Origin: Macrocystis pyrifera
Lineage: Eukaryota > Sar > Phaeophyceae > Laminariales > Laminariaceae
Assembly: GCA_031763025.1 (NCBI GenBank)
Contig: JASSKH010000021.1
Coordinates: 4,278,001 to 4,342,000 of the forward strand
Length of the DNA stretch: 64,000 nucleotides
Direction of reading: 5' to 3'
This document shows positions 9,701 to 59,539 of the stretch, in pieces. A model generated the notes under the pieces. The model ran no database searches. It saw only the letters and a program-made list of their open reading frames with translations, and was not told where the DNA came from. The position numbers and the translations under genes are program-made. Position 1 is the stretch's first letter. The number at the start of each line of letters is the position of its first letter.

Positions 9701-9798
9701 ACGCTCGTATCCGAGCCGCTATGAAGAGGCTTTTTTTTTCTTGGAAAATTCCAAGAAAAAAAAGGCTCGCCCGCTTTTAGCGCGCTTCGCGCGCCTCA
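6705..9798. repeat. 1.34-kb segmental tandem duplication (6705-8040 and 8450-9798)
   Basis: The two copies are very similar at an offset near 1,747 bp, with a ~400-bp unique spacer (8041-8449). Each contains internal ~200-bp repeats around GAACTCGAAATTCGGCATAA, CAG tracts and a (CA)n block. Each ends in a perfect hairpin, CTTGGAA/TTCCAAG with T/A arms, at 7970-8003 and 9730-9763. The open frames are shared by both copies but show no family resemblance. Confidence 0.85.
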
Positions 9799-10789: not shown

Positions 10790-11770
10790 GGCTTTTCATG
10801 GGTCATGACCCGACCCGCGGGTCGGGTCGCGAGGAGTTTAAAATTCCACGGGTCGGGTCGGGTCGGGTCAGGAAGTGTCCAAAGTTCTCTCGGGTCGGGT
10901 CGGGTCGGGTCAAGAGGTTTCAAATTTCGCGGGTCGGGTCGGGTCGGGTCAGGTCGGGTCAAGACGTGATGAAAATCTCACGGGTCGAATCAGGTCATGA
11001 CCCGCGAGAAACGGGTCACTCTCGGGTCGGGCCAGCATGACCCGCGAGTCTTTTTTTTTGCTGACCCGCGGATCGGACACGCGCATCCAGCTCGTAGATC
11101 CGACACTTGAAACACTTCCCGCTCTCTTATCCAAAGGCTTCTCTCGTACTAATACTCAACAATACGTTCGAGTATCGCAAGTTGTCGACCGGGGGCGGAA
11201 TGACCTCCTGTGTCGTTAGTGAAAGAAGCACGGGACGGGGGTTTTAACCGAGAAATATTCCTTTGGTATAATATTCAAATTAAAACATCACCCAATTCAT
11301 ATATGCATGCCCGCATCCATCCATACCCACTACAGCCAGGGCACATATCGCTGCGGAGCACAAAAATAATGAATATTTAAATGTTTCTTGAAGCGTCGAC
11401 CCACGGGCCGGATCCGCGGGTCGAACCCACGGGTCAAGATAAATGGTTTCGCGGGTCAGGGTGACCCGATCAGCATGAAACCCGTGCCTCACAGGTCAAT
11501 CGGAAGGTGGCGGGTCGGGTCGGGTCGGGTCAAGAGTTTTTTTATCTCGCGGGTCGGGTTGGGTCGGGTCAGGAAATTTTCAAATCTCACGGGTCGGGTC
11601 GGGTCGGGCCAGTAGTTTTTTAAATCTCGCGGGTCGGGTCGCGTCGGGTGAAGAGGGTTTCAAAATCTCGCGGGTCGGGTCGGGTCAAGTCAACACACCT
11701 CAAAAGTTTCACGGCTCGGGTCGGGTCAGCTGACCCGAACCGTGAGGTTTGACCTGACCTGCGAAATGCC
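10790..11770. mobile_element. GGGTC-repeat element, copy A
   Basis: Left end CAGGGCTTTTCATGGGTCAT. The body is mostly units of (CGGGTCGGGT)n plus A/T-rich spacers such as CAAGAGGTTTCAAAT, around a non-repetitive core (11110-11400). The right end inverts to GACCCGAACCGTGAG. The copy at 54168-54980 shares the core motif CCAAAGGCTTCTCTCG. A CAGGGC-type tip hints at hAT. It truncates the copia element. Confidence 0.7.
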
Positions 11771-11779
11771 GATCCTTTC

Positions 11780-13215
11780 AAAGCCGTTGAACTTGAGCTC
11801 TTGTAGTAAATCTTGAACGTGACAGGCTTCCCTCATACAAAGGGTTATCGCCACTAGTTTACTCTCGACGGTGCTCAGGCTTGTTTGTTAACGATTGAAG
11901 CGAGGATGTCCATGAGATAGGTGCTCCAGGAAGAAAGAAGATGTATCCACTTGCAGACCTGCGCTTGTCTGGATCGTTGGCAAAACTTGCATCCGCAAAT
12001 GCATCAAGTTTGGTAAATGCCCACTCTTGTAGACGATGTCAAGCTCTTGATGTCCCTTAAGGTACCGCAAAACGTGCTTCGCCTTTTTGAGGCGAGCCGT
12101 TGAGGGTTTGCTGGTTGCCCTTGTCAGTTGTTGAACAGAGTATGAGATGTCCCACCGTGTAGTTCTTGCAAGGTAGAGAAGACTTCCTACCACTGATTGG
12201 TATGGCTTGATTCCTTCTTCATCGAGAAATGTATCCGGTGGTTGATCCAGTAATAGTTCGGTTCCTGTGCTTGGTGTATTTACCGGGTTGCGGTGCTTCA
12301 TGTTGAACCGATCTAGGATGGAGCGTGTGTAGTCCCTTTGGTTGATGCGGAGTGTCCGCTCGCTCCGGTCGCGTGTGATTTTATTTCCCAAGACGAGAGA
12401 AACTTCCCCCAAGTCCGTCCTCGAGAAATTTTTTTCCTTGAGTTGTCCAAGGATAATTTTGTCCGGTCCAGTAATTAGTATGTCATCGACGTAAATTGTC
12501 AACATAGCCTACCCCCCCCCCCCCCCCATTTTGTAGATGTACATACGTGGGTCACTTTTCGTGGAGGTGAATCCGATGGTATTCAATGCTTTTCCAGGGT
12601 GAGGTGCCAAACTCGGCTGGCGGTCCTTAAGCCGTAGACAGCTTGCTTGAGTTTCATCACCAACGGTATTCCTGTTGTAGCTTCATGTATCTCATACCCT
12701 GGAGCTTGATACCTCCTCGTCGATCTTGCTTTGTAGGAACGCGCTCTCTACATCCAGCATGTAGATGTCCCAGTCGTGTTGCGTGCTGACGGCCATGAGT
12801 AGACGTTGGCTTTCAATGCGACATACGGGTGCAAACGTTGCTCCGCAGTCAATGCCCGGCCGTTGAGACCATCCTTGCACCATTAGTCTTCCTTTGAAGG
12901 TAAAGTCGCTTTTTACTTTGTATCACCTTGTGGTTGAAAGGCACAGCAGCTCTTGGAATGAGGTCGTAGACGTCGTTCTATTTCAATCTGCCCATTTCTT
13001 GATCCATTGCTTGCTTCCAATTATCCGCGTGCTGGGATGCTATAGCTTCCTTGAAGGTGTTGGGTAGAGTAATGGTGGCTGGACCCGGGTTGGATTGAAC
13101 TCCTGTTAGTGTGATGTATGCGCACTCAACGAGTGAAGCGTATGCCAGCTCGTGTGCATAATCACTTGTCGGTTTTTCGTTGTAAGGCCCCAACCGTTGC
13201 AATTCCCGCAATGTC
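11780..13215 (-). pseudogene. Copia reverse transcriptase and partial RNase H
   Basis: Includes FKEAIASQHADNWKQAMDQE (about 13050), LMVQGWSQRPGIDCGATFAP, LDVESAFLQ and the catalytic box IYVDDILITG near 12490. Then GSLLYLARTTRWDISYSV and the connection domain follow. Frameshifted RNase H pieces (STVESKLVAITLCMREA) run to about 11780. An 18-base C run (12511-12528) sits between palm blocks. Confidence 0.9.
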
Positions 13216-13370
13216 CTTGCATCGGAACCTCCGCTGTTAGCATCTCGTGCCGGTCCTGTCGATCGTAGTGAACTTGTCGGTGGAGTAGTTGGCTGTGCCG
13301 TTGTCCTTTGAGAATGTAATGTCCCTGTAGATATAGCATTGCTGCTGGGTGTGACGGATGTTGATCCTGT

Positions 13371-14115
13371 TCAACTGGGTGCGCCTCCTGAATTGGGTGT
13401 CGGAGGCCTTGGTGCACTTCCTGTGCTAGCTGTACGTTCCTTTTTGACAGATGAAGTGGATGGTGCCAAGGTAGTCTGTGTAACGTCTTGATCTTCGTCT
13501 GGTGAACTAGTCAGTGGTAGATGTCCAAGGATATCCCAGTGATGAATTTCTCCTTCTTGAAGACCTTCCTCATTAGTCTCGAGTAGGTTTTCGTGCCCAG
13601 CGAGTGGTGGTGCCTTGGGCAATGTCTCAATGAAAATCACGTTGCGACTTTCAGTGATCCTCCGCGTCTGTGGATTATAAATACGGTAGGAGCGGCTGTC
13701 CTTTCCGTATCCTACCCTTAATCCTTCCCAAGCTTTCTGCTCTAGCTTGTGTACATGAGTTTCTTTATGCACGAAAGCGCGTGCACCAATTATACGCGAT
13801 GATGACAGGTCGGGATTCCCTTTGTATAGTTGAGAATATGGAGATCTTCCTCCAAGCGCCCGATGCGGAGAACGGTTGATGATGTAGGTCGTTGTTTCAC
13901 AGATTTCTCCCCATAGGAATTTGGGCATGCCGGTGTCGATTAGTATGCAACGCACCATGTTCGTGATCGTTCTACCATCGCCTTCGGACATCCTGTTCTG
14001 CTAAGGATTGTTTATGGCAGCAAATTCTTGCTCTATGCCAGTCTGCCTACAGAAATCCCTGTAGTATCCCGCGGTGTATTCCCCCCCTTTGTCACACCTT
14101 AGCCGTTGTATCCTC
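13371..14115 (-). pseudogene. Copia integrase catalytic core and C-terminal region
   Basis: The second acidic motif CDKGGEYT is at about 14094-14071. An in-frame stop lies near 14000, before SEGDGRTITNMVR, which holds the third acidic residue. Then come WGEICETTTYIINRSPHRAL and GARAFVHKE, conserved copia integrase blocks, and a Ser/Thr/Pro-rich spacer. Confidence 0.88.
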
Positions 14116-14119
14116 ATCC

Positions 14120-15027
14120 CTAGAGGTGTGACGTAGTCGTAAGGGTGTCGATCGCTTTATCCTTGGATCGAATGGGGTAGACTACTTTCCATCTTGTGTG
14201 ATGATCGGTGAACTTGCTGATGTACTGTGAACCGTCCATGGCGTTTGGCTTGAAACTCCCAGCGAGGTCGGTGTAGACAAGTTCAAACGGTGCGGTAGTG
14301 GTGACCGTTGATATCTTCGGGTGCTTGCCTTGTGCACTCTTTCCTAGAGCGCAAGTCTTGCACGGTGTGATGCTTCCTTCGAATGAAACCCCAGAGTATG
14401 GTTGGTCTCTAAGCGTCTTCGTACTTCCCTCGTTCAGATGTCCCAGGCGGCGATGCCCAGGTATCACCATTGTTGTTTTCGATGAGAGCTGATGGAGCTG
14501 ACGTGGATGTTTGCGGTGGCAAAAGCTCCAGGTCCAATGTGAAGAGTTGTCCATCACGTCGCAGGGGAAAATTGATGTTGCCTTTTTCAAGCCGAGCATT
14601 GTCGGATATTATTGTGGTGATACCCTTGCCTTGAGCTGCACCTGAAGAGAATAGATTGCGTCCTATACCAGGCACAATTGTGATGGGTAGAGTCGCCATT
14701 CTTGTCCGGCCATTGCTGTCGGTGACCTTGCCCCGTAATTTTCCTGTAGCAGTTCCAAGTAGTGTATGCAACCCTGCTGTACTGATGGTCCGTGGTGTGT
14801 CAAATTCTTGGTAGTCAAACATTAGATGTTTGATACCTTTGACAAGCTTGTCGTCCACGATGATCCGAAGCTCCGCTGTCGACAACCATCGTAATTTTGA
14901 CTGTCTTCTGTGTGGATGCTGCTAAACTTTCCTCGTCAGAGGCTGTGAATGAGAAACCCATTGAATTCCCGCTGCCTGTAGCTGTTGTAGAGTCCTGTTC
15001 TTGAAGTGGCGTGCTGATACGTTTCAT
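14120..15027 (-). pseudogene. Copia protease and integrase N-terminal region (frameshifted)
   Basis: The aspartic protease active site MVVDSGASDH lies near 14890, just before a frameshift. Downstream are IVPGIGRNLFSSGAAQGKG and the GAG-pre-integrase zinc finger (HRRLGHLN ... CKTCALGK, 14460-14350). Next is the integrase core beginning FELVYTDLAGSF. Confidence 0.88.
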
Positions 15028-15056
15028 GACACTAACAAGGTCATCCTTGGAAACAG

Positions 15057-16306
15057 TTACTTCGTCGCTTGTTTTTTCTTGGGTTGCAGCGGTGGCGTTG
15101 TGACCCTTTCCTTGATTCTTCTGCTGTGCTGGTGGTTAATGAGAATTTTTACCACAGCCGCTTGTGCCTTGCATTCCGCGTCGCTGTGAGAGGTTGTGTT
15201 TTGAAGCGAGCACCACTTGGTCTTGGATGTTGCTCCTTTCTTCGAAGGCTTGATCCTCTTATTACGGTCAGTCGGTGCTTGGGCGATCTTCTTCGTACTC
15301 GCTGTGCACTCTCGTTGAAAATGTCCCAATTTGCCACACGAATGACATTTTAGTCCAGACTTATCTCGTCTGACTGCATCAGCAGTCATTGCTGATCCTC
15401 TTCCTTGACGCCCCGATTTAGGAAGTCCGTTGACGTACATGTTGTGCATGGTGAATTTGAGATCATCTAGCGAGAACTCGGAGTCCTTCATCGCTTGAAA
15501 TTGGATTAGCTCGTATTCGTTAGTCATGCCTGACAGAATGATATCCATTCCTCGATGCTTTGTAACGGACTCACCCGTGCTCTCGAGATCATCCGCCAGT
15601 TGATCGACTTGGACGAAGAACACATCTGGATCTTGTCCGTCCTCCATCTTGGAGTTGTCGAGCTTCCTCATCAGCGTGCGACGACGCTGCGTTGAGTTGT
15701 TTTCATACTTGACGAGTAATGCTCGCCAAGCCTCTTGCCCGTTCGCTCTTTTGCCGAGCTTTGACTCGAATTTCGACAGAAGGCTCCCTGCTGGTCCTGT
15801 CGTTATTAGAAACAGAACGCTGAACAGTGCAGCATTGGCTTGATTCCACTTGCTGATCTCCTTCTTGTAGAGTGGAGATCGAGATGCTGCTGTATCTTCG
15901 ATTTGGGGGTCTTGATGCTGCTGTTCTGCTGTAACAGTTGCATGATGTATGGTCTCCACGTCAGTCGGTAGATTTCCAAGGCGATACATCGTTGCTGCAA
16001 TGTCAAGAGCTGAACTGGCACCTCTTCCTGCAGTTCTTGGGCCAGGTCTTGTTGTTCTCCGACGTTGTCCGCGTCGTCCCCGTCAGCGTCTACCACGCTG
16101 TGCACCGGAGTATTTATGGTGCTTCGATGGAGTACCTGCGCGTCAATTTCTTGTGGCCTTTTTGGACCATTCAGCATTCCGAATATTCCTGGTCGGGCGA
16201 GCTGAAGCATAGCTCTCGTGGAGCGTTTCCAGTCTTGAAATTTGCTTGCCGTTCCATCGAACTTCGGAATGCCTCTGATGAGCGTCGTTATGTTGGTGTA
16301 CTCCAT
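15057..16306 (-). pseudogene. Copia gag (frameshifted)
   Basis: The N terminus from 16306 has IPKFDGTASKFQDWKRS, typical of copia-type gag. After a frameshift the main body (15989-15057) contains LSKFESKLGKRANGQEAWRA and a CCHC zinc knuckle, CHSCGKLGHFQREC, near 15340. A second cysteine pair, WCSLQNTTSHSDAEC, follows. Gag packages the element RNA. Confidence 0.88.
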
Positions 16307-16611: not shown

Positions 16612-17654
16612 TCATGTATACCAAGGTTTAAGTTCTACATCCGTGCCAGGGGGTAGGGGTGTGAATCTTTCGGTGAAGGCTTTCCGCAGTTGGGGGTTTG
16701 CCATCAGTTGTTGGAAGTCGATTGCCCGTCTTCTCTCCATCTCTCGCTTACGGCGGTTAGGGGCAAATCGTCCAAGCGCCCGGATGTCTGCTGTGACCAG
16801 GTTGTGATCTGATTCAGGTTTCACTAGAGGAGGTCGACGCACAGTGACATTTCATACGAGTCGTCTGTCTGGTTGCCGCGTGAGCATAAAATCCAGGCGG
16901 GAGCGACCTTTCCCACTGTTTGGGTTTTGGAAGGTGTATGAGATACCACGCTAGGGGTGCGCGGAAAAACGTACTGACAAGAGCAAGTTGTGTTTCTGTT
17001 GAGAATGCCACCATACGCCGTCCGTTGTCATTCAGCGTATCCCGCTTGTATGCACCCAGCACCTTGTCATCGAGGCAACCTCCCCCCTGGCGCCAGTGCG
17101 AGCGTTAGCATCCATATGACAAGTAGGTGTTCTCCTCTAGGCACTTGAGAAACTGTGCTGCCTATTATGGCCCAAAAAGGTCTTTGTCGCGGACTGATTT
17201 TTTACTATCAGCCGGGGCGTACGCAACCACAAAAGTGTTGGCGCCGTGAAAACTCAGGGGTGGAGGACAACAGGAGTGACAAGCAACAGGAAATCCCCTT
17301 CGATTTCCCCTCCAAGTTTAGCCGCACCTTCATGAGTCGAGCACTGATGTACTCCACAGCCAGTCCACCCTTCTCAACATCCTGCAGGATCGACTCCTTG
17401 ATGGCTATCCCTACTCCGTGTTGACCCTTGGCCTCCGTACTTCCGCCAGCTCCACTGCAGTACACAGTGAAACCCGCTGCTGTGAACCCATCCTGCCCAT
17501 CTCGTCTCATTTCCTGCAACCCAACAATATCGTACTTGCTTTGCCTGCAGACCTCCATGACCTTCTCGGCATGGCCAACACCGTTCTCGCCGTTGACGGC
17601 CAGAGCACGGACGTTGAATGTGCCCACGATCAACTCGCCCTCTCGAATCTTCAA
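16612..17654 (-). pseudogene. LINE apurinic-type endonuclease relic
   Basis: Starts near MKIREGELIVGTFNVRA at 17654. It shows the exo/endonuclease motifs GTFNVRA, DIVGLQEMRRDG and GQHGVGIAIKES. Frame-broken downstream blocks follow: WMDANARTG, FMLTRQPDRRL and finally PESDHNLVTADI near 16800, the terminal SDH motif. At least three frame changes and an early stop make it a pseudogene. The reverse-transcriptase part is absent, the copia element lying next to it. Confidence 0.85.
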
Positions 17655-18440
17655 TCTAGCGGCCCTTGTACCGCTCGATCAACTCACCGCGCTTTTCGAC
17701 CCCTTCATAGATCTATTTTTTAGACGCTTTCACCATTTAACATTTCGCCTGCTCTGGTTCTTGCCTTGCTTCCAACGTGTCGGGTGCAGCACTTCCGACC
17801 CGCCACATCCGCGTCCGTCCAGTCCCGTAGGTTGGTTACTCGGGTGGAATCTCCTGTCATTTCTACTCTCCATACTACGGAGCCCACGCTTTCCGCAACG
17901 GAGCCCCATCGTTGCCGCAGGCCTGAAAGGCCGCGGAGAACCTAATCCACGATTATTGCGGTGCAATCCCCGTCAGCGTGACCACGCCAGCGCACCACAA
18001 GCAAGGAAATACACAGAAGAGTTTAGCGCCCCGCATACACGAGGTACCGGTACCCTCCTCTGGTCCGATCGAGAAGGCCAAGGAGAAGGAAGATATGTGT
18101 ACCTGCTGCTGGTCTGACCAACTGCCTGAAACAAATAAGCACCTCGTACTTCGTACGTCGTACCAGGTACGAGTACCAGCAAAACAAAAAGGCACAAATC
18201 ACATCCAGCTGAGCGCAGCTCGGCGCAGCTCAGCTGAGCAGCGCAGCGTAGCGCCAACTTTCGCACATCCAAGGTATCATGCGAAGTAAGAAGTACCACG
18301 TAGAATCACAAGAAAGGCACACCCAGCCCCAACTCAGCTCATGCAGCAGCTCAGCGCAGTGGAGTGCTGAGCAGTGTCGTGCCATGCCGTATCGTGCTTG
18401 CTCTTTTGTGTATACCGAAAAAATAAATAACTACTTACAT
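17655..18440. other. No recognised gene
   Basis: Contains short GCTCAGC-type repeats near 18205-18375. A 229-codon plus frame that starts inside the LINE relic continues here without protein-like features. Confidence 0.35.
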
Positions 18441-29404: not shown

Positions 29405-29930
29405 GGGTTGGGTTGACGTCGGTTGGCAATGGCACTGTAAAACATGCCGCTCACTACGTGAGCTAGAGATCCAGAGTACCGTTTTTTTTTGTTTTGTTTT
29501 TGCGGTAACCCACAGCTGGTCGTCGAGTTAGATCATTTGTGCGAGGTAAAGAACCTTTACTCTGCACAAGGAAATTGATCGTATCACGTAGTGTTCAAGG
29601 TAACGCGTCCAAGCGGCAGTTACATGGTACTCTCATTGCTGTCTCTGGAACTGGCTACACCGGAAATTAAACTAACTCATTGAAGCTGTCATCCGTATGC
29701 AAGTCCGCCTCACAAGCGGTTCTTAGTAGGATGCAGCTCACTCTTCATGCGACTCGCCGGACACCTCACGGCGCTTCGCGCTTGGTGCAAGCAATGTCTG
29801 CCTGGTCGGTGAAAACCCGACATGCTCCGTCCCGGCATTGTAGGGATGCGAGGGTCTATGATCATACGACTACGGCCATGCATGAGATCGAGTACATCTC
29901 TCCTATCGAGTACACCCCCACCCCCCGAAC
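29405..29930 (+). mobile_element. C-tailed SINE-like element, full length
   Basis: Head GGGTTGGGTTGACGTCGG, an internal T run (29483-29500), GTTCTTAGTAGGATGCAGCT, then the GAGTACACCCCCAC tail. It directly abuts the tRNA-derived SINE. No clear RNA polymerase III boxes were seen in its head. Confidence 0.85.
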
Positions 29931-36500: not shown

Positions 36501-39500
36501 TGGGGTAGGGTGGGGCGTGATCCTTGATATGGTTTCCTCGCCTTTAGATGTGCTTCCTATGAAAACAAAACTAGCCGCATCTTGTGTGGTGGTGATGGTG
36601 GTGATGGTGCTGCTGCTATGGTGGTGGTGGTGCTGCTGCTACTACCGGTGACGCTGCTGCTGCCCACGCTTTCTGCTGCCATTGCCGCTACCACAACTGC
36701 TACTGCCCGTGCTACCGCTGCCGCTTGACCCAACAAAACAGTTTTACACGAAGAGCCCGGAACGCGTGGACGGCGTAATATACTTGGGCAGCGGCAACAG
36801 GATCGGAGACGCCTTAGCGGGCATCGAAAATCTCCCAGCGCTGATCATACGAGGCTCCCGGGACCCCTCCTGCCCAGAGGAGGTGCAGTTCGCGACGCCA
36901 CTTAAGAGATTGAAAACTACTGTAGGAAATGTTGAAATGTTTGGCTAGATCGTGCGCGAAGAGGCCGTAAGGCCGGTAGCTCAGTAGGTAACACCTTCAC
37001 AGTGCATGCTGTAGCGGCGCCATACTGTATATGTTCGTTTCGTTTCGTTTCGTGGTAACATCGGACTTGCGAGAACTTCCACCAACTGATAGCCCTTTAA
37101 AACATGGGCGCAGTTCTGAAGCGAGTAAAACCATATCAGTACGCGCCTTGGTTATTACGAGCGAGTGACGGATGCGAGTTTCTAATTTTGACGGCGCGAA
37201 GCACATGGGGGCCCCTGTCGAGTTACCTGAAGCCTCCGCCGAACGCTGTATGTAGCGCCCCCTAAAGCCACAGACAAAATGCTGGCTATATAGCACTACC
37301 CACCCGCCTATTTGAGCCACGTGACAAAAAGTAGGCCAGTCAGTGGGTGGGTGGGTCGTGCTACATAATTAGCACCAAAATTCACACCGTAAATTGGATG
37401 GGTTGGGTTAGGTTGTTTTTCATTGTTTATTTATGCATACCTTCTGCCAGCGCACACGAGTCAACATCATTTGCAAGTACGCTGATGCACGAGTTCCTAG
37501 CGCCAACTATACTATATGTATTTCGCCGCCGTGTGCGTGCGTGTGTCCCCGCGGAATGAAAACAGGCGCTGGAGCAGTCGATATCGAAAATGCCGATTGG
37601 CCTCGAAACCGTCGTGGCGGAAGGAGGGAACCACAGGGGCTTCGCGTCTTACTCCTGGCAACCGCTTGACTGGGAGGTGAACAACGGGGAGGGGGGGGGG
37701 GGGGGGGGGTCGATGTGTCCTGTTCTATAGGGAGGGGGGGGGAGGGGGCGACGAGTTTTTATATCGAGGGAGGGTCTATGTGTGCTATTGTATGCAGCGG
37801 GGGGGTTCGATGCATGTTTGTGTGTCACTACATGCCGATAGAAGGCGATACGTCTCGCGTTTTAGCGGCAATGCTTATTATATACCATGCCCCCCTCCCC
37901 TCCCCTATACTATATACCTGGTATATATAGGTTGGGTTGGCGTCGGTTGGCGACGACGCTGTAAAACACGCCTCTCACTGCGTGAGCTAGACAGCCAGGG
38001 TACCGTTTTTTTTTTTTTTGGTGGTTACCACGGCTGGCGGTCAAGTTAGATCATTTTTATGCGGGGAGAACCTTCCCTCCGCACAAGGGGGATGATCGTA
38101 TCACGTAGTGAGTATATAGTGAGGCACCCACGAGGCAGTTACATAGTAAACCCATTGCTGTCTCTGGAAGTGGCCATACACTACAAATTAATTCAATTCA
38201 TTGATGCTGTCATCCATATGCAAGAAAATCCGCCTCTAAAGCGGTTCTTAGTAGGATGCAGCTCACCCTTCATGCGACTCGCCCAACACCTCACGGCGCT
38301 TCGCGCTTGGTGCAAGCAATGTCTGCCTGGTCGGTGAAAACCCGACATGCTCCGTCCCGGCATTGTAGGGATGCGACGGTCTATGGCCATACGACTACGG
38401 GCATGCATGAGAATGAGTACACCCCCCCCCCCCCCCCCCTATGGTCATACAACTGCGGCCATGCATGAGATCGAGTACCCCCCCCCCCCCCCCCACCCAT
38501 TGTTGTCTCTGGCAATAGCCACACCAAAAAATAAATCAATTCATTGACGCTGTCATCTGTATGCAAGAAATTCCGCCTCAAAAGCGGTTTTCAGTAGGAT
38601 TCAACTCACCCTTCATGCTACTCGCCCAACACATCACGGCGCTTCGCGCTTGGTGTAAGCAATGCCTGCCTGGTCGGTGAAAACCCGACTTGCTCCGTTC
38701 CGGCATTGTAGGGATGAGAGGGTCTATGGCCAGACGACTACGGCCACGCATGATATTGAGTACACCCGCCCCCCCCTCCCGCCCCCCTTCTCTGTGTTGA
38801 GTTATATGTGTGGAAGAACGTGACGGGAGTCGAGAAGTTCCCTTTTTGCGCATGTGTCGATATTCAGCGTCCCTTGCGCTTGGTGTGGTGCGGTGTGTGC
38901 TCTAGGCAGCAGCAGTGTATGGCCAACGAGTGTATACCAGAATAAGCAGAGCAAGCATTTGTGCAAGCTTACGAACAAAGCCACGGGAGGACCAGGCGAG
39001 AGCAAAAGGCGATTACAAAGCACAGCGAAAGCTGTCGATGTAGTAGCTGCAGTAGTAGTGCAAGCGTACAAGTGGAAGCCCATAGAGAGATGCCACCCAG
39101 TGGTATGTGGGTCCGGCGCGGGGCGCTGAGGACAATTGGTGTGTGTCGAAGAAAACCGAAAGAAGCCTTGACGAAAGAAGGAAAGGCCTTGTAGAGTGCA
39201 GTAGTGCTCTCTCAGCAGTGCCTGTTGCCGGAGTAATGCCGGTATTTTAGACTGGCACAGTCAGTAGATTTTCATTTCTATGCTGAAACCGGTATATTCC
39301 CCAATCCGGAGTAGTGCCGGCTGCCGCAGTAGTGCCGGTTTTTCGGGGTGATGCATACCGTCACTACCGAGGGACCACTATTGCGGGGGACCATAGTAAT
39401 AGGACCAAATATTGTTAGTAAAAATAGGTAAATATATGGTATTTTGTGTGTACGGTAGGTCTTGTTTAATGTGGTCCCCCGCAATACCGTACATCAAGTG

Positions 39501-49080: not shown

Positions 49081-49131
49081 TTACTCTCGGCTCTGTCCTC
49101 GAATCCTACGCGCTAGCTGAAAGTCCCGAAC
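49081..49131 (-). CDS. CenH3 exon 5 (alpha-3 and stop)
   Basis: Begins after the acceptor CCAACCGAAG, encodes [16 protein letters not shown] and ends in TAA at 49083-49081. It matches the H3 C-terminal motif ([11 protein letters not shown]), with Phe in place of Ile as seen in plant-type CenH3. It follows exon 4 in phase 0, completing the histone fold. Confidence 0.9.
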   Translation of the reverse strand, partial: VRDFQLARRIRGQSRE

Positions 49132-51535
49132 CTTCGGTTGGAAACGATAACGATTCGAGGCAGAGAGAGAGGAGTGAGGTAGATTTAGAATTGGACAGGA
49201 CAGGACAGGAACAGGGTAGAGCACGGCAAGGCAAGGCAAGCCAAGCCAAGCCAAGCCAAGCCAAGGTTAGGTTAGGCAAGCCAAGCCAAGGCAAGGCCAG
49301 CCAAGGCCGGCCAAGCCAAGCCAAGCCAAGCCAAGCCAGGCCATTCAAAAGATCAACTACAGTAGAAAGCATTACACGGAACAGACGCACTGCATGAATG
49401 CCTCATCGAGCAAGCCGGACAACTGCACCATTCAAGTAGAATCGTCCGGCTGACCCTGGTATGTATTATCTGGGGGAGTCACCGACTTATCATACCCTTG
49501 AAGAAGAATGCTCGAACGCGCGACACTTGTCAAAGTTTGAGTATTCCACCTGTCGGGAGAGCTCACGACTGACGTCTAAATATAACGGTCTAAAAGTATT
49601 TACAAACTTGTCAGCTGTGGGGTCAACCATTTTTTACTATTTTGGACAGAAAGATCTGCGAACGAGGTTGGGCCGAGCAGGAACCTGTTCAACCGTTTTG
49701 ATAGCTTGAGTAGAATGCTCTGCGAACGAGGCTAGGCTGAGCAGGACCCTTGACAGACAGGGTACGCAGAAAAAAGCCTTGGTGGCATAGCAGCATAAAA
49801 ACTCCAGTCTGTCGCCGCTCTCACCATTATCGTCACTCGCTTGGCGTGAAGCGCACAGAGATTCGAGTCCTCGAAGAGCGAGACCAGGTGCGCCTCCGCC
49901 GCCTCCTGCCGAAACGAAACGTCCAAAAGGACGAAACGACACAAGAACGCGAAACGGCACAATTAGGCGCGAGATCCAAGACGAACGGCGCAAAAACGTG
50001 AAACGGCACAAATTAGGCGCAACGTCCAACGTCCAAAGACGAAACAGCACAAGAAATCGAAACTGTACAGTTAAGGGAAAAGACCAAAACGAAATGACAC
50101 ATAAAAAGCCACGCGTTACGTACAAATGTAGCGAATTTTCAGGACGAAACGGAAAAAGATACTCACGTCCAAGAAAAAGCGGCAGAAAAACAACGCAGAA
50201 ACACCGAAACGGCACAACAAAGCAAAAAGTGAAAAAAAAAAAAAAAAGAGAGGAGAAATAAGAGGAGAATGAACCGAACTATCCCACAGAGGAGAGAGGG
50301 GGACAGCGGGACAGCACAAAAAACAATGCCACCCTCTCTAATTCGAAGTAGTATCCTCAAAATGTAGGTGCAATTGAATACAACTGTTCCGGAATGTAGA
50401 GAAAAAATAATGCACAAATCAAGGGTACGCGCAAAAAAAGAACGAAAAAAAAAAAGAAAACGGAGCCGTACTGGCCACCATGTCGGAGTTGAACACTAAC
50501 TACGGCTCGTAGCGGGTTGGGATTTTCGTCACAACTGAATTAAAACATTTTTTTTTTTCAGTTTAATTTCACTTGACTTCTGGGCGGGACTCCGAAAATA
50601 AAGGTGGCCTGTCGATATTTTTTTTGTCGCGTACCCTATGCACAAATGGTCCTTTTTTGCTTCGGAACAGAGGGGTAGGGGAGAAGCAAATGTACCAAAG
50701 ACTGAAAAAAAAACAGCGCAACGAACAACGAAGCGGCCGCTAGACGGGGGACGGCACAGGACAGCGAAACCTCCAAACGTTCATTCACACGGGCAGAACA
50801 TATCACCGCCTCCGATTTCAAGTACTGACTGTAGATATTCCCCAAAAAAAAAAGTACGGGAAACTTGCATGCAGGGCTAAAACTGAAAAAAAATGGTCCA
50901 ACTCCAACATAGAGTAGCTTGTCCACAAAAGGTGGGTGCCGCTGCCAAAAAGGGTTGCGGAAAAGCCACTCGGAATGAAAACTGAAAACATTTTGCCGTG
51001 GAATGATCGAACAAGTCACGAGCTAGGTCATCCAAAATCTACACCCTATATCGGCCTGCATGAGACGCTGCTGTGCAGGATCTGTATCGTGTATAGACCC
51101 GACCCCGGAAACACCTGCTAGATCATGCAGATTATCAACACAGCTCTCTCTCCCACCCGGCAACATGAGCTGCATCATTCAGATCATACAGATCATACAG
51201 ATCAGGGATCTACCTATCTACCATGAAAAATATAAATCATGAAGAGATCTGATCCGTTTGATGGGTGCAAGGTTTTAGTAAAAAATATATACATAAATAT
51301 ATACCCAGTGTTGTTCCATTTCCTCGCACGAAACCCACCTGCAACGCTAAAAGAGCCGCCGCCTGCCACCGGTACGACTTCCCCGATGGTGTGAACGCCT
51401 CCTGCACCTCCTTCACCTGAAAATATGTGCACGAAGGTGTGTGTTGCGCACGGACAACAATCGGCGATAAAGCTGCCGTACCAAAACGAGGAAGTTTTGC
51501 AACTTCGTGAATGTGCTATTGTAATTCGCCACGCG

Positions 51536-51567
<32 letters not shown>

Positions 51568-54500
51568 GCTTCGGTGAGCCAGATTGAGGCGTCGAAGACT
51601 GATTGATCATGATCATCATCATCATCGTCATCACCCACCACCACCACTGCCACCGGCATTATCATGCCATCGTTATCATCATTCATCATCTTCACCACCA
51701 TCATCATCATAGCCATCCATCACCACCACCGTCATCATCACTATCATCATCGCCACCGCTTATGAGCATCACATCATTCTGTCACACTTCACGGGCTCTT
51801 AACGGGTCAGAAAGTTTCGAAATATCACGGGTCGGGTCGGGTCAGGAGGTTTGCAAACTCTCACGGGTCGGGTCACCCTTAACCGACCAGACCCGACCCG
51901 ACCCGCGCGGTTTGACCCGGCACGTCAACAACATCGGCTATATATCAGGTACATAGAATTACAGGCAATGACGGGTCATACAGATCAGAGATGCAATAAT
52001 CTGCCCTGAACTGTCCAGATCACCAAGTGGGGACCTGATCTGATCTGGAATGTCTGATCTGCCGGACGGGTGAAAACATGAAGATGAACTGGAACGCACC
52101 AGCCGCGCAAAGGGGAGCTTCCTGATGAGCAGCTCCGTCGTGCGTTGGTACGCCCTTATCTCCTTGAGAGCGCGTTCCCCCGGCCTGAAACGCCTTCGCT
52201 TCGGCTTGTTTTCGTCCGACCCCGCTCCGCCGCCCTTTCTCGACGCCAAAGACGTCCTAAAAAAGGGGTGCAGTGTCGAGCGAAGAAACGGGCGGGGGCA
52301 GGGTTAGGGTTGGTTGCGGGGGAAAAAAATTACACGTCGGACGGCCACCGTAGATCACGAACTGAATCATCTAGAGAGATCCTAACCTGCCGTTACGATG
52401 TATCGTGCGTCGGAGATACTATGACGATCTACAGCGGTGGATCTCATCTGGATCTTAACCGGCCGTTACGATGTCTTGTGCAGGATCTGTTCGAGTGCGG
52501 ATCCAACCCAAGAAACATGCCCTAATGAATAAGATAATGCAGATTATGATGCGGCTCCCACCCGGAAAAACGGACCAGATCATGCAGATCAGAGATCTAT
52601 CTGCCACTGAAAGATCTAGATCATCAGGTGGAAATGGTCTATCTGATCTGTGCGGTGTGTGGAATGTTTACGACGAGACTCATCCGAACGAATAGGCAGG
52701 CAAGCTCATTCCTTGGTCTGGTTCCCGTGGGCTTTTCTTCTTTCTGCAGCTCTTTATGAGCTATACCCACCGCATGTAATCTTCAATTTTTCTGGATGGC
52801 AAACACGATAATAGCAACACCATCGATACTCAAAACAACGAAGGGCCTCACCGCTGGCTACGAATGCTACTGCGTGATCATAAAGCAAGCAGTTTCTTTG
52901 TTCCATGTGTTTTTTTGTTGTACGAGGTACACTTTACGAACCCATCTATTATCTTCACCCCTACAGTAGTACGTATATACAGTACTTATCCACCCCCCTC
53001 ACAAGCGGTTCTTAGTAGGATGCAGCTCACCCTTCATGCGACTCGCCGGACACCTCACGGCGCTTCGCGCTTGGTGCAAGCAATGTCTGCCTGATCGGTG
53101 AAAACCCGACATGCTCCGTCCCGGCTTTGTAGGGATGCGAGGGTCTATGGTCATACGACTACGGCCATGCATGAGATCGAGTACATCGCTCCTATCAAGT
53201 ACACCCCCCCCGCCCTTCGTAACTCAGATCTATTACGGCCACATACATATAAAGCAGGCCCTTCTTCCCGCCCCCCCTCCCGACCAGAACGCGTGGAACG
53301 ATAGCGGTGGCACTTTTAGGCCTTTTTTTTCTGAATTACGGGGCTCCTTAACCCAAAATCGTCGCAGTTTCGTTTTTGTGTTGCCATGGGATCGTTTGTC
53401 GGGTACATAATGCATACGCAGCACTTTCGTTTCGCTCCAAAATCAGTTTTGGGATGAGGTGCATAAACCTCCTTAAGATCAAGTGAGGAAGCTCAGAAAA
53501 CAAAACGGTGCACATCTGCGAGTGCTGAAGCATGCGTCTACGTACGGAGGAGCGCGCCTTCTTTTGGATCGCGCAAGAGTTGGCACTTCTTTTTTTGTTT
53601 CGACTCGGCGGCTCTTGTCGAATCGAGCGTAAGTGGGGTATCATCGAACGGAAATCAAATCGCGAGTTTCATACTGGTACTGCTGGACAGGTGTTTGGCA
53701 AAAAAATCGGCGGTTGTGTACGGTGGTTGTTCTGCGTAGTGATCATGCACAGCGATAATGCACAGCGATTATGGCACACCGTCACTTTGCACACACATAC
53801 GTAGCGGTTTCGTACACCGGTTCTGCATGCACAGCGGTTTCGGCCATCAAGCAGAGGTTTTGTATGGCGGTTCAGCAAAGCGATATTCACAGCAGCGGTG
53901 GTTCTGCGCAACGGTTTTGAACGGCGGTTTTCCACAGCGATTTTGCACAGCCGTTCTGCACAGCGTTTTTGCCGAAAACACCCCTACAGAAGTATACCCA
54001 AAGAACCTGACACCTGGGAATCACAGCAGTTGTTGCTGCTCTCACAATAACTCATCGCCAAAAATCTTGTCCGTGGTCAGAGAATAGGCCCACAAATAAG
54101 AAGTGATCCATCAACGCTTCAAAGACTGCATGCAGTCCCGTTTTGAGGACAAACTACTAATAATTTGCAGGGCTATACGCGGGTCAGGAAGTGCTCAAAA
54201 TTTCACGGGTCGGTCAAGAGTTTTTCAAAATCTCGCGGGTCGGGTCAGCGCGGGTCTTGAGTTCTTCGAATCTCAAGCGTCGGGTCGGGTCGGGTCACGA
54301 GTTTCTCAAATATCACGGGTCGGGTCGGGTCGGGTCGGGTCAAGAGGTGATAAAAAGCTCACGGGTCGGGTCAAGTCATGACCCGCGAGAAACGGGTCAC
54401 TCGTGGGTCGGGCCAAAATGACTCGCGAGTTGTTTTTTGCTGACCCGCGGGTCGACCCGCGGGTCGGACCCGCGCATGCGGCCCGCGGACCCGACACTTG

Positions 54501-57455
54501 AAAAAAAAAAAAAACGCTTACTGCCCAAAGGCTTCTCTCGCACCAACACCGGATGGTTGTTCAGTATCACAGTCAAACATTAAAATACCGCCAAATATAC
54601 ATAGGCATGTCCGCACCAATCCATACCCACTACGAGTACAGCCAGGCAACGATGCAAAAATGAACACCATTTTTTTTTAGGGTGGCGACCTACGGGCTGA
54701 GTCCGCGGGTCGAACCCGCGGGTCGAGATGAATAGTCTCGCGGGTCCATCGGAATCAGGCGGGTCGGGTCAGGAGTTGTTCAAAATCTCACGGGTCAGGT
54801 CGGGTCGGGTCAAGAGGTTTTCAACTCTCGCGGATCGGGTCGGGTCGGGTGAGGACGTTTTCAAATCTCCCGGGTAGGGTCGGGTCGGGTCGGGTCAGGA
54901 GACTTCCAAAATCTCGCGGGTCAGGTCAGGTCAGCTGACCCGACCCGACCCGTGAGGTTTGACCTGACCCGCGAACAGCCCCGAAAAATTGAGTGGATGT
55001 CCCCAACATGGGACTGCAGTCCCCAAAGGGTTAATGATAATAACATAATGTCTCTTTTGGGGGGGGGGAACGAAGAAATTTTGGAATAAGAAATCGTTAT
55101 CAGCGCCGAGTGTCACACCGCATCCTTTAGTAACCATGCTCAAGGTTGATGAGGAATGGTGTCACACTAACGTTCTAACGAAACCACTGGGACTACGCGT
55201 ATGATATTGTTCGAGCGTGTTTCTTGTTGGCGGGCCCATGCTACAACAGGATACAGCAGTAGTGGTGGTCCCTCTCTAGTGCCGGCTGAGTAACGCCGGC
55301 TGCCGGCTACTAGTGCCGGTGGAATCGCTCGGCACAGATGGGACTAGCTATTAATAGTGTGGCAGTGTGCGGAGTAATTAGTGCCGGTTGCCCCTATAGT
55401 GCCGTATTGTTGGCTGGCGGTAAAACGGTTTCTTTCACAAAGATACGGACACTATAGAGGGACCACTACTGCTGTACCTGGTACCAGGTATACCTTGAAC
55501 ATCTCTTCTACCTCTCATAGTAGTACGGTATACCCAGACAGGGCTACGCGGTCCCTCGCGCGATGACGACTCTGTATTCGTCGTGGACGGTAGTCGTCGT
55601 AGCTGTCTCGACGATTCTAAAACATGTGAAAGCCGTCCTTCCTACACGACGAGCAAACAACGAATCCGACCAACACTTCCATGTACTTATTGCCGTCGAA
55701 TACCAGCTACCTGGCATGTACGGTACGTAGAACTGTCTTGTTATGATACAGATAGGTTCGATTTCATTGAGCGAATGCGCGACAGCCGAGGAAACCTTGT
55801 ACACATGCACGTGCGTGGCGTGGGTCTCAGTACAGCGGGCAGCGGTACGGGCCAGGACAGGGCAGCGACACGTACCAGGTACGGTACAAGGCACTTCTAT
55901 TACGCACGACGCAGTCAGAACACGAGCACTAATGTAGGAACGCTGAAATTTCCTCGGAGAGTAAGAAATTCGGGACTCGTTATACTGAAGTTAGTGTAAA
56001 ATGCGCCCTTTCTTAAATAAGAATTTATCAAATAAGAATTCCAGTCTGGACCTGCTTTCCTGTTTCTTACCAGGTGTTCCTGCGCTGCATGTACACACTC
56101 GAATACTGCTGTGTGTGAGCTACGTAGGGAAAGAAGGACCGCCAGAGAGTATATGTTGCCTGTTGCACCAAAGGCTCCAAAGCTACGAAGTCGGTCCTCG
56201 AGGTTGCTTGCTTCGTGCTCTGGGGTAGTGGCGAGTGAAACATGGAAACGCAAAGATTAAGATTTACCAGGCCATGTAAATTTTGAAGATTTTGTTTCGC
56301 AGATAAGATTTGATGGAGCAGGATTTGAGATTTGGATCAAAATCCAAGGTCGTGTGACTTCCTGCGATTCGGACGGGATGAGCAGAGCCTACAATTTTGA
56401 ACCGGCGTAGATTCTTGCCATCTACATACGAGTACCAGGCAGTCGGCACGGCACCTGTTTGCGACGTCACCGCTACAGCTGTAGATCTTGTTTCGTTCCA
56501 TATATCCCAAGTACGTATCAAGCCGCCTGGGTAACGAGCTGGTCCAAGGACAAGCCTATATTTTTAGTAATAGTAGAGCGTAGAGGCGACAATTTTGGGC
56601 CGGCGCAGACTCTTGACGGTCTACAGCAGTGGTCGGCAAATGTCTGCGACATGACTGCTACGTACTACTGCTGTATGCTGTAGATCGTGTTTCGTTTCAT
56701 GTCGTGATGGACCCACAGTCAGTTAGCATGAGCCGGCTGGTGACGAGCTTGTCGAAGGACAAGCCTATCTTGTCCTCGTACAGCTAGCTAGCTGCCTTAG
56801 AAAATTGCCAACACATTTTTCTGTAGTTGTATTTTCAAAACATTTTAATATATTTTTGCCACAGAAATGCAGTGCCATTTTTTTTAGGAAATTTCTCACA
56901 GTCAAAAACGTAACGAAAAGCAGAGATCAAAAGAGCAAACCCAGGAGAATCCTAGTAGTCTTGTGTGCAGCAGGCAGCATGTTCGTGCACGAGATGGGGC
57001 CAGGCAGCTTCAGTCGGCGATGGCAAAGTTTCACAACGTCCTTCGTGCACGGCGCGACCGACGCAATGGCCCCACGGCGGAAAACAGCGCTGAAGCTGAT
57101 CTCTCTGTTGCGTGAGAGGAGGGTCCTTGCCTGTCTGAAGACCCACACATAGCTGAAAATAGGCCGTGAACTCACGCCGACACCCGAGGCAAGTCACCCA
57201 GACACCGACGACTACAGCAACCATCATGTGAAAGCGTTGTAAGCGAGAGAGCAGCGCAGAGCCCAGCTTCCCAGAGCTCGGATCGCAGTTTTCAAGCCGG
57301 CTTTGGCATGGAGGACCCCACAAAACAACTCTAAAAACGCGCGCTTTTTCTCGTTCATAAAAGTTGCTGGAGTTTTGGATTTGGGTTTACCTTGGTTTCT
57401 TTGTCGGCTTCTTGCCACCCACTGCCTTCTTCGCGGAATGCTTCAGGCGCGCCAT
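49081..57455 (-). CDS. Centromeric histone H3 variant (CenH3/CENP-A-like), complete, 5 exons
   Basis: Histone H3 family protein of 143 residues that should replace H3 in centromeric nucleosomes and recruit the kinetochore. The exons are 57455-57391, 52256-52100, 51416-51339, 49905-49825 and 49131-49081. Every intron is GT-AG: the first splits one Arg codon (two bases plus one base) and the other three are phase 0. The ATG is directly preceded by an in-frame TAG, which fixes the start, and the frame ends in TAA. The H3-like tail opens [17 protein letters not shown]. Next come the alpha-N and alpha-1 helices ([19 protein letters not shown], about residues 53-71), a long loop 1 (TPSGKSY before Arg90-Trp91), alpha-2 ([19 protein letters not shown]), the HAKRVTIM loop 2, and [11 protein letters not shown] at the C terminus. 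The long loop 1 and RW are CenH3 signatures seen in the sequence; centromere function is inferred. A divergent non-centromeric H3 variant is the main alternative. Confidence 0.88.
49132..49824 (-). other. CenH3 intron 4 with pentanucleotide array
   Basis: Contains an impure microsatellite of AAGCC/AAGGC units at about 49225-49345 (plus strand), then unremarkable sequence. A near-repeat, GAACGAGG(T/C)T(G/A)GGC(C/T)GAGCAGGA, occurs at about 49660-49683 and 49726-49745. Confidence 0.7.
49825..49905 (-). CDS. CenH3 exon 4 (alpha-2, loop 2)
   Basis: The 81-nt phase-0 exon has a TTTCGGCAG acceptor and an ATG|GTGAGA donor. It encodes [13 protein letters not shown] followed by [14 protein letters not shown], near-canonical H3 alpha-2/loop-2 sequence. 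The Ala-rich EAAEAHL resembles CenH3 more than the H3 sequence EACEAYL. Confidence 0.93.
49906..51338 (-). other. CenH3 intron 3 with ACGAAACGGCAC and A-rich repeats
   Basis: The plus strand of this intron is A-rich, so the transcript is pyrimidine-rich. It has decayed repeats of the type gaaacggcacaa (49915-50230), several A runs, and a fragment of the GATC-satellite family at about 51060-51220. No coding segment was recognised in it. Confidence 0.6.
51339..51416 (-). CDS. CenH3 exon 3 (extended loop 1, start of alpha-2)
   Basis: The 78-nt phase-0 exon lies between a TTTTCAG acceptor and a CAG|GTGGGT donor. It encodes 26 residues beginning VKEVQEAF and ending [10 protein letters not shown]. 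Seven residues (TPSGKSY) separate Phe82 from Arg90, against four in canonical H3, and the Arg is followed by Trp as in known CenH3 proteins. Confidence 0.9.
51788..51935. mobile_element. GGGTC-repeat element fragment
   Basis: CGGGCTCTTAACGGGTCAG to GTTTGACCCGGCACG, a short version of the GGGTC family, in CenH3 intron 2. It follows a (ATC)n microsatellite at 51608-51765. Confidence 0.6.
52100..52256 (-). CDS. CenH3 exon 2 (tail, alpha-N, alpha-1)
   Basis: Acceptor in CACCCCTTTTTTAG with a CCCTAACCC branch-like motif upstream; donor GTGCGT after the Leu codon. Encodes a basic linker ([10 protein letters not shown]) followed by [21 protein letters not shown], an almost canonical H3 alpha-N/alpha-1 segment. 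This block alone identifies the H3 family. Confidence 0.93.
52990..53213 (+). mobile_element. C-tailed SINE-like element, 5'-truncated
   Basis: Starts near CCTCACAAGCGGTTCTTAGT and ends AAGTACACCCCCCC, inside CenH3 intron 1 (antisense to the gene). Confidence 0.85.
54106..55030. mobile_element. GGGTC element copy B (54168-54980) nested in a GGACTGC MITE
   Basis: The left half GCAGTCCCGTTTTGAGGACA (54130-54160) and right half TGTCCCCAACATGGGACTGC (54995-55016) are arms of one small palindromic element. The GGGTC element lies between them. The element ends read CAGGGCTATACGCGGGTCAG and, inverted, GGGGCTGTTCGCGGGTCAGG. Confidence 0.65.
55252..55476. mobile_element. ~225-bp MITE with CAGCAGTAGTGG ends
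   Basis: Left TACAGCAGTAGTGG(TGG)TCCCTCT and right AGAGGGACCACTACTGCTGTA, flanked by TA. The interior has repeated TAGTGCCGG. A partial relative is at 39200-39385. Confidence 0.75.
56974..57115 (+). other. Candidate terminal exon, unknown plus-strand gene
   Basis: After TGTGCAGCAG one frame reads [20 protein letters not shown] then [20 protein letters not shown] and stops at TGA 57113-57115. The composition is protein-like but it lies inside CenH3 intron 1 on the other strand, and no partner exon was found. A minus frame is also open here. Confidence 0.25.
57391..57455 (-). CDS. CenH3 exon 1 (H3-like N-terminal tail)
   Basis: Codes residues 1-21 plus two bases of codon 22. It starts at the ATG directly after an in-frame TAG and ends at a GTAAAC donor (57390-57385). 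The tail keeps the canonical H3 register, with lysines at the positions of H3 K4, K9, K14 and K18 and the Gly-Gly at 12-13. Its leftover two bases match exactly the single base needed by exon 2, which is why it was joined across a 5.1-kb intron. Confidence 0.82.
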
Positions 57456-59539
57456 CTAGTGCAAGCCAGGTTCTCCAGAGCCTTCGCCAGAGCTTGCTCC
57501 TACCCTTTTGTGTTCCAGCACCAACCACGCAACGAGCCTGCGTGTTTGGTTGCCGGAGATCACGAGATAAACGAGAAGCAAGTAGAACCAACATCGCAAA
57601 CATGCCATCGTGGGAGAACATGTCGAACGCCTTTTTGTCGTATAGCCCATTTTGAACATTAATTTAATATCCGTAGTGTACTAATATTTATATAACAACG
57701 ATACTTATATTTTCGTATTTATTATTGGTACGGTATTTATGTAATGTACCCTTTATCTTCACGGAAAATTCTTGTGCTCACTTGAAGCAGTGCATTGCCC
57801 GGACGATAGCGAGGCGCAGCTGGCCAGGAGTTACCGAGGTATGATTGGCGGGTGCACTGAGATATCATCACGGCATTAGCCATGTCTGGGTGGTCTTCCA
57901 GTTGATGCTGGTCAAGATTTGTAGCAATGATCTTGGAGACTCTGTGCTCGAATCCCGGAAACAGCACCACTTGCTTGCAGCTTGTAAAACGCAACAGAAA
58001 GAGATGATTTTATGTTTCTCTATGAAATATATTATACAATATGATACCAGAGTCAACGCAAGGGTTTCTCGCTGCTCACAACAACACGCGCATCGCTGCC
58101 TCTGAAGCATCGCGTACCGCGTACTGCACTTTCCATGAACTACTCAGCAGCAGTTTCGCGAGGTCATCAAGTCTCATTGACGGGACTGGGCTCGCCGTGG
58201 TGTTTCTTGGGGCTACGACGTGCCACTTTGTCCGTAAATTCAAGGAGCGTTCTGTTATTGGTATTATGTGTAACACGGTCCTTACATTACGGACCGAGGG
58301 TGGGTAACTTTAGCCTACGAGTATTGAGCCGCTTTTTTTTGTCGACCAAATTACCAGTTGGCACTTCCAGTTTCCAGAGCGGAGACCAAAACCACTGATA
58401 TCTGGTACCTGGCACCGTAGCTGGCAAGAAGCAATGCGCGAACGCTGTTTGTGCACGTTGAGCTAGGTTTGCCGATATGCCGGTATGCCGCGGGGCTTGT
58501 GGGCAGCATATACCCCTTTTTTACCCATTGCTCCCTCCCTACTCGCAGTAATGCTCTCGTCGTTCAGCGTACAACATGTGTACATATATACGGAGCCGTG
58601 TATCATACGTGTATACGCAATACGCAACCTCTATTAATAATATGCAAGGTGCCGCGTTCATGGTACCGTATCGAAAGCAAGGGCGTTGAGTTCACAAAAA
58701 GACTGCGGTCGTCGTTTCCTCGACGACGGTGATAAGGATCGGAACATATGTGTTGTTCGCAAGCCTCTCGACCGGATCTGTCCGAAAACAACAACTTTGT
58801 TCGGTATTTGGCACACCTTAACCTACCCGTTCTGGAGAAATCGAGAACTGAAAAAACGATCGCATCTCTTCTGTGCTGCGCTCTGCGAACTCAACGCTCT
58901 TCAACGCACCGCCGTACACCTGGTACAGCAGTATTATTTATAGGAGCTACGTGTGGCACTGGCTTTTTCTGGTTGATTCCTCGCATCTCGTCTTAGCCGT
59001 ACCCTTTCACGAGTACTGCTATACTGCTGACTGCTACTCGTACTGCTGTACATAACTGTCAGTACTGCTATGCAGTATATACTGCTGACTGCTACTCGGC
59101 TGCTCGTGCTGCTTTACATGACTATCAGTACTTAGTAGAGCAGTAGAATGGCCGACACCTGCCCTCTCCTAGGTCACGAATGAGCCCCGCAACAAAGCCG
59201 AAGCCTGAGACTTCCGAGGGAAATCGTGAGAAATTCCGGAGCTTGTACTCGTACAGGTATGCCGATATTATACGAACGCTCTGTCTCTTAAGTGCAAGGA
59301 ACGTTTGTACATAAATATTCAATCCAAACGGTCCTTATGTTTCGAGACAAGGTGATATGACAGCAGTGTGGAATCCGCTATTTACGGGGGAGGATACAAG
59401 TAATAATTAGGACCAAACATGCTTACTATTAATAGTACTACGAGTAATATTAATAGTAAAAATACTGGAGTATACGTACGCGCATAGTTTTTTTTTGCAT
59501 GTTGATGGGTCCTGATTACTTCTTTCTTTTTTTCTTTTC
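57456..59539. other. CenH3 upstream region and unassigned ORFs
   Basis: No promoter element is certain. Minus frames at 57737-57994 (KQVVLFPGFEHRVSKIIATN onward) and ending at about 58078 (MRLDDLAKLLLSSSWKVQYA) look mildly protein-like. A plus frame near 58793-58900 (NNFVRYLAHLNLPVLEKSR) does too. None is assignable to a family. Confidence 0.3.

Follow-up and report, generated by a model that had tools for sequence, protein, structure and literature searches.

Which member of the histone H3 family is encoded by a small, split gene on the minus strand of a 64-kilobase (kb) stretch of the genome of the giant kelp, Macrocystis pyrifera (contig JASSKH010000021.1, positions 4,278,001 to 4,342,000)? 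The gene has five open exons that span positions 57455-49081 of the window, a term used here for the whole 64-kb stretch, numbered from its first letter. Judged from its sequence, the gene most probably encodes CenH3, the CENP-A-type centromeric histone H3 of this alga (probability about 0.93). The spliced histone of 143 amino acids would then replace H3 in centromeric nucleosomes, where it would pair with H4, have its loop 1 and alpha-2 recognized by a chaperone, and be placed at centromeres. CENP-C would read the centromeric nucleosome and link it to the outer kinetochore. Beyond the gene structure and the pieces of a CENP-C gene described below, these steps are modelled on CENP-A biology, and the same analogy leads us to expect that the gene is transcribed and spliced and that its product is deposited, located at the centromere and active in the kinetochore.

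Five small exons and their product

A sequence-only reading of the window had proposed a gene of five exons, none longer than 157 nucleotides (nt), that are in phase at all four junctions. Its coordinates, lengths and phases are correct, and the strand, which it left unstated, is minus. Exon 1 (57391..57455, 65 nt) supplies the ATG and the beginning of the N-terminal tail, which is H3-like, and is followed by the donor gtaaac. Exon 2 (52100..52256, 157 nt) encodes the remaining tail, alpha-N and alpha-1, and exon 3 (51339..51416, 78 nt) encodes the end of alpha-1, loop 1 and the start of alpha-2, which is the CATD-like part of the protein. The remaining alpha-2 and loop 2 are encoded by exon 4 (49825..49905, 81 nt), and alpha-3 with the TAA stop by exon 5 (49081..49131, 51 nt). 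All four introns are bounded by GT-AG: intron 1 (52257..57390, 5134 nt) is in phase 2, while intron 2 (51417..52099, 683 nt), intron 3 (49906..51338, 1433 nt) and intron 4 (49132..49824, 693 nt) are in phase 0. A TAG lies immediately 5' of the ATG of exon 1 and could alternatively be used as the acceptor of an intron in the 5' untranslated region.

The joined exons encode 143 amino acids plus the stop, with a GC content at third codon positions (GC3) of 0.75 and no frameshift or stop. The product, a member of the H3 family as had been proposed, matches the Pfam Histone profile at 137.5 bits (cut-off 26.4) over residues 15-138, and H3 and CENP-A chains from the PDB align across residues 1-140, indicating a complete H3-type histone fold. 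It had also been noted that two exons fall within unrelated long frames. Both do: exon 4 lies inside a long minus-strand frame of another register (49640-50278) and exon 1 inside a 102-codon minus-strand frame, also of another register (57358-57663). The description of the gene as hidden is overstated since multi-exon CenH3 genes are normal and a probable CenH3 has already been named in the brown alga Ectocarpus. CENH3 genes are reported to have seven exons in cereals (alpha form) and nine in Arabidopsis species (PMC8603533), and the CENH3/CENP-A gene of rat and chimpanzee to have four (PMC549713). Rfam and tRNA scans of the 64-kb window gave no matches.

The exons are not equally well supported. 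With an H3 sequence as the tblastn query against the window, exon 2 scores 57.4 bits (E 3e-13), exon 4 scores 52.0 bits (E 2e-11), exon 1 scores 27.3 bits (E 0.007) and exon 5 scores 23.9 bits (E 0.10); all four matches lie on one strand and in the correct order. The top score across 100 dinucleotide-shuffled windows is 29.6 bits, a chance level that the matches in exons 2 and 4 exceed by a wide margin. Exons 1 and 5 exceed chance by position only, and exon 3 is supported by its fit to CenH3s and by its splice sites. The support for exons 1, 3 and 5 comes from order, strand, frame and splice sites, not from score alone.

The choice of splice sites was examined by shifting the donor and acceptor of a single intron by up to 60 nt and counting the in-frame, stop-free GT/GC-AG pairs, which were scored by their fit to H3, Cnp1 and Cse4, a set of proteins that share ancestry with the gene. 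Introns 1-4 have 18, 26, 28 and 45 such choices, respectively, the modelled pair included, and the modelled pair scores highest at each. The margin is wide for introns 2-4 (1008 versus at most 972) and narrow for intron 1 (1008 versus 1001 with the acceptor 18 nt downstream), which leaves six residues of the tail less sure than the rest. This test addresses the choice of sites, not their use in the cell.

Several repeats lie within the introns. Tandem arrays whose units are of the CGGGT type, in most cases about 40 bases long, occur at 10930-11693, 51803-51874, 54206-54372 and 54760-54891 of the window, and several of these sit within introns 1 and 2. A CAAGC pentamer array of 23 copies (49227-49343) lies within intron 4, about 95 bases from exon 5. 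The plus-strand reading KPDMLRPG(F/I)VGMR... is alike at 29813-29917, 38338-38376 and 53102-53230, which is probably one interspersed repeat, and the last of these copies falls within intron 1.

Hallmark residues, other histone loci and a CENP-C candidate

CenH3s are reported to differ from H3 in an insertion in loop 1 and in the loss of a glutamine in alpha-1, of Phe85 and of a threonine (PMC4359364, PMC7052976). The third of these residue criteria is printed as position 118, which is not a threonine; counting Met as 1, as is done throughout, the threonine of H3 is at 108. The window protein differs from canonical H3 and H3.3 in all four features (loop length, Gln69, Phe85 and Thr108). Loop 1, TPSGKSY (51372..51392, minus strand), is three residues longer than that of H3 and has the same length as that of Cse4. 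Gln69 is replaced by Ala (codon at 52106..52108, minus strand, in exon 2), Phe85 by Trp (codon at 51366..51368, minus strand, in exon 3) and Thr108 by Ser. A canonical H3 or H3.3 is ruled out by these four differences. The sequence-only reading had based its CenH3 call on a longer loop 1, an Arg-Trp after it and an Ala-rich alpha-2, and all three are present. Thr108 is a weak discriminator, as Cse4 and Cnp1 retain the threonine. The gain in loop 1, the loss of Gln69 and the change of Phe85 to Trp are found jointly in five of five CenH3s compared (HTR12 among them) and in none of five H3s.

The rest of the genome was surveyed with histone-family profiles. The scan scored all 39 of its candidates and yielded 25 matches, each of which was classified: six are intronless H3 genes (L001-L006), two belong to an intron-bearing H3.3-type gene on contig C223, two to a further H3 variant on contig C199, two to the window gene (its exons 2 and 4) and 13 are H2A or H2B. 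Among these scored matches, which comprise nine H3-type loci, there is no second locus with CenH3 hallmarks; the other eight (the six intronless H3 genes, the H3.3-type gene and the further variant) retain the H3 loop length, the Gln and the Phe. The scan scores the best candidates only, can overlook small exons (it detected two of the five in the window gene) and did not list an H4 gene present in L004. Since it is incomplete, the statement that the gene is single copy reaches no further than the scan. The introns seen in the kelp H3.3-type gene lie near residue 5, in Arg40 and before VGLF. The window gene shares none of these positions in its own four introns, an observation that speaks against its being a recent duplicate of the H3.3-type gene.

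The genome also holds pieces of a candidate for the protein that usually reads the centromeric nucleosome. A scan with the CENP-C_C profile gave one match, at C219:12569176-12569274. A second exon lies upstream of this match. When these two cupin exons on the plus strand of the contig (about 12568.6-12569.3 kb) are joined (AAG/GTGGGG with GCCAG/GTG, the slash marking the exon boundary; the first of three candidate joins), the peptide scores 30.3 bits against the Pfam cut-off of 29 (E 5.3e-7). About 3 kb upstream on the same strand (C219:12566143, L025/L026 region) lies the CENP-C motif GVRRSGRQRVAPLKWWKGDNIQY, the one match in the C219 stretch to a pattern written for this motif. The motif matches solved CENP-C chains by phmmer (7bxt_K, E 1.6e-5; 4x23_V, E 1.3e-4). 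Shuffling the 64-kb window 100 times yields 26 matches to the pattern, whereas the window itself has none, and 0.03 chance matches are expected in the C219 stretch, a rate derived from shuffles of the window and not of C219. Motif and cupin stand in the expected order, and a CENP-C gene is therefore likely. The genome thus appears to hold both the centromere mark and its usual reader.

Alternative readings and the surrounding DNA

The alternative that survives best, improbable as it is, is that the window gene encodes a divergent H3 variant of non-centromeric role (replacement, germline or stage-specific) that has independently gained a longer loop 1 and the Trp. Its case shares several of the observations that weigh against a CenH3, the first of which concern overall similarity. 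The fold is most similar to kelp H3 and H3.3 (65/97, 67.0% identity), compared with 54.0-65.5% for the five CenH3s, 64.9% for frog H3, 58.8% for yeast H3 and 55.2% for the C199 variant. Such values are expected when H3 evolves slowly. CenH3 folds are reported to be generally only about 50% conserved with H3 (PMC8015243). The best full-length match in the PDB is 5zbx, an H3.1 that carries a CENP-A segment (E 4.6e-43), followed by the 7k78 chain named Cse4 (E 9.4e-43) and plain H3 in 1f66 (E 1.1e-42); the 5zbx and 7k78 chains both bear H3 tails, which lifts their rank. When the fold alone is scored, the chains are nearly level (chimera 126.7, H3 126.2, Cse4 125.3 and Cnp1 125.1 bits). It is therefore the diagnostic sites, and not overall similarity, that decide the class of H3.

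Phylogeny, which the sequence-only reading had named as a check, gives a weak answer. In a tree of 11 rows, with the loop columns dropped, the window protein groups with the CenH3s (support 83/90) and adjoins Cse4 (81/86); without the long-branched HTR12, it is split from the H3s at 84/88. The loop-1 insertion, the lack of which that reading had named as part of a refutation, is present. The approximately unbiased test rejects neither a placement on the H3 side (p 0.113) nor a tree that joins the protein to the C199 variant (p 0.079). When the three diagnostic columns are removed as well, the known CenH3s are ungrouped and only human and chicken CENP-A are resolved. Because the tree without these columns resolves neither the known CenH3s nor the window protein, it is the hallmarks and not the tree that carry the CenH3 call.

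The ends of the protein also weigh against a CenH3. The tail is H3-patterned, with 22 of 45 aligned H3 positions before RPG identical, and its alignment to H3 (without RPG) scores 61, compared with a mean of 10.0 (standard deviation 8.8, maximum 48) in 2000 shuffles. K4, K9, K14, K18 and, by alignment, K27 are retained and K23 and K36 are lost, as are the mitotic phosphorylation sites Thr3, Ser10 and Thr11; the Ser that follows K27 is Gly. By contrast, the human CENP-A tail scores 21, a value that 56 of 500 shuffles attain. The Cnp1 tail is short and scores 19, which is reached by none of 500 shuffles in a test that includes the common RYRPG end, so the contrast holds for CENP-A only. CenH3 tails are described as typically highly divergent (PMC4751559) and as not alignable across distant species (PMC8015243). 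The kelp protein would thus be a CenH3 with an unusually H3-like tail, about half changed, which is mildly odd. Its C-terminus, QSRE, is polar, and CENP-C is reported to recognize a hydrophobic C-terminal tail (PMC9252888). The match to the CENP-C cupin in a single exon scores 18.9 bits (E 0.77), under the cut-off of 29, and matches that weak are also found in eight of 14 prokaryote controls. A PDB search with the cupin peptide is likewise weak, with yxaG and quercetin dioxygenase in the lead (E 0.011) and a CENP-C chain fourth (E 0.24).

The H3-patterned tail with its K4, K9, K14 and K18, the 67% identity of the fold to kelp H3 and H3.3 and the H3 grouping that the tree leaves unrejected can thus all be read in favor of a non-centromeric variant. 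Such a variant would have had to acquire together three changes that are common to all five CenH3s compared and found in none of the five H3s. It would also leave the genome with no better CenH3 candidate among the scored H3-type loci, yet with pieces of CENP-C.

Still less probable is that the C199 variant (L009:4635-4967 and 8045-8146) is the CenH3 of kelp and that the window gene is something else. This intron-bearing gene is also diverged, being 55% identical to the window fold, and the CenH3 of Dictyostelium is reported to be without a longer loop 1 (PMC9252888), so the insertion in loop 1 is not an absolute requirement. However, the C199 variant retains Gln69, Phe85, Thr108 and the loop length of H3, has the EAYx/VGLF intron position in common with H3.3, and has a tail-like KQTARKT piece upstream in a frame that differs from that of the fold, so that it may be a broken or derived H3.3. 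It was rejected as the true CenH3 on its hallmark residues, though not absolutely, and may represent a novel H3 variant or an H3.3 copy in decay. That the window gene is a decayed or untranscribed copy, as its long introns rich in repeats might suggest, is scarcely credible given five open exons, a GC3 of 0.75, intact GT-AG sites, no lesion such as a frameshift or stop in the joined exons and its standing as the sole such locus among the scored matches. A close viral relative was also sought: 16 IMG/VR stretches matched a pattern and none of the 16 encodes a relative by tblastn, a search that reaches close relatives and from which records of the window's own genome were possibly excluded. A CenH3 gene therefore remains the reading that we prefer.

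The remainder of the window contains mobile-element remains. In Pfam searches of ten long frames, five have domains of retroelement type and nothing was found in the other five. Remains of a Ty1/copia element lie in separate frames at 11888-16082 (minus strand) and comprise a gag with a zinc knuckle, a retroviral SH3-like domain and RVT_2, with a gag-pre-integrase just below the cut-off. An Exo_endo_phos match of 30.9 bits at 17211-17678 (minus strand) is probably the remnant of an endonuclease from a retroelement without long terminal repeats. Two pairs of frames have like starts and are probable local duplications: about 2092-2586 and 3016-3510 (minus strand), 924 bases apart, and 7423-8022 and 9167-9724 (plus strand), about 1740 bases apart.

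Possible uses of the gene and comparison with known systems

CenH3 is an ordinary and expected gene, and it is as a tool that it is useful. No study of giant kelp CenH3 or CENP-C was found in a literature search that left most subscription papers and preprints outside its scope, and the paper on the kelp genome does not use the word "histone" in its main text (PMC10498591). A Hi-C study of Ectocarpus states that chromatin immunoprecipitation sequencing (ChIP-seq) of cenH3 is required to decide the composition of brown-algal centromeres (PMC11541908). The gene described here supplies a target for tagging or for antibodies with which giant kelp centromeres could be found, and the likely CENP-C gene is a second, independent target. 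In plants, haploids can be induced by changes in CENH3, and the gene may for this reason be of interest to kelp breeders.

The tail also bears on a proposal made for Ectocarpus, the putative centromeres of which carry a chromodomain retrotransposon that was proposed to recognize cenH3 or another centromere protein (PMC11541908). It is conceivable, if unlikely, that in kelp CenH3 the H3-type tail attached to the CENP-A-type fold, with several lysines open to acetylation and methylation, bears a methyl mark of its own and docks the chromodomain of brown-algal centromeric retrotransposons. If this were true, the H3-like tail of a CenH3 would be the binding target of such a chromodomain, and the tail described here permits a concrete test of the idea.

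Among well-studied centromeric histones, the likeness is close to Cse4 of Saccharomyces cerevisiae, which aligns with the kelp protein without gaps in loop 1, has Ala at Gln69 and Trp at Phe85, and has FARLVKEV and RWQ in common with it. Cse4 differs in its own long tail (the fold begins at residue 131 of 229 in 6uph), whereas the kelp tail is short and H3-like, and it retains Thr108 where kelp has Ser; the folds are 62% identical. Human CENP-A resembles the kelp protein in the WQAxALLALQEAAEA of alpha-2 and in the replacement of Gln69, Phe85 and Thr108 (fold identity 60.8%). Loop 1 of the kelp protein is one residue longer than that of CENP-A, the C-termini differ and, as noted above, the CENP-A tail aligns to H3 no better than 56 of 500 of its own shuffles. 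Cnp1 of Schizosaccharomyces pombe (fold identity 64.3%) has the RxRPG start and the Trp in common with the kelp protein, but its loop 1 is three residues longer and it retains Thr108. Closer in descent is Ectocarpus, a brown alga of the same class, for which a probable CenH3 has been named (PMC7784034). In the stramenopiles, the oomycete Phytophthora sojae is reported to possess a CATD-bearing CENP-A, the first gene model of which was wrong because an intron had been missed (PMC7082073). A tagged form of the P. sojae protein was used to map it by ChIP-seq (PMC7082073), whereas the kelp gene is known from its sequence.

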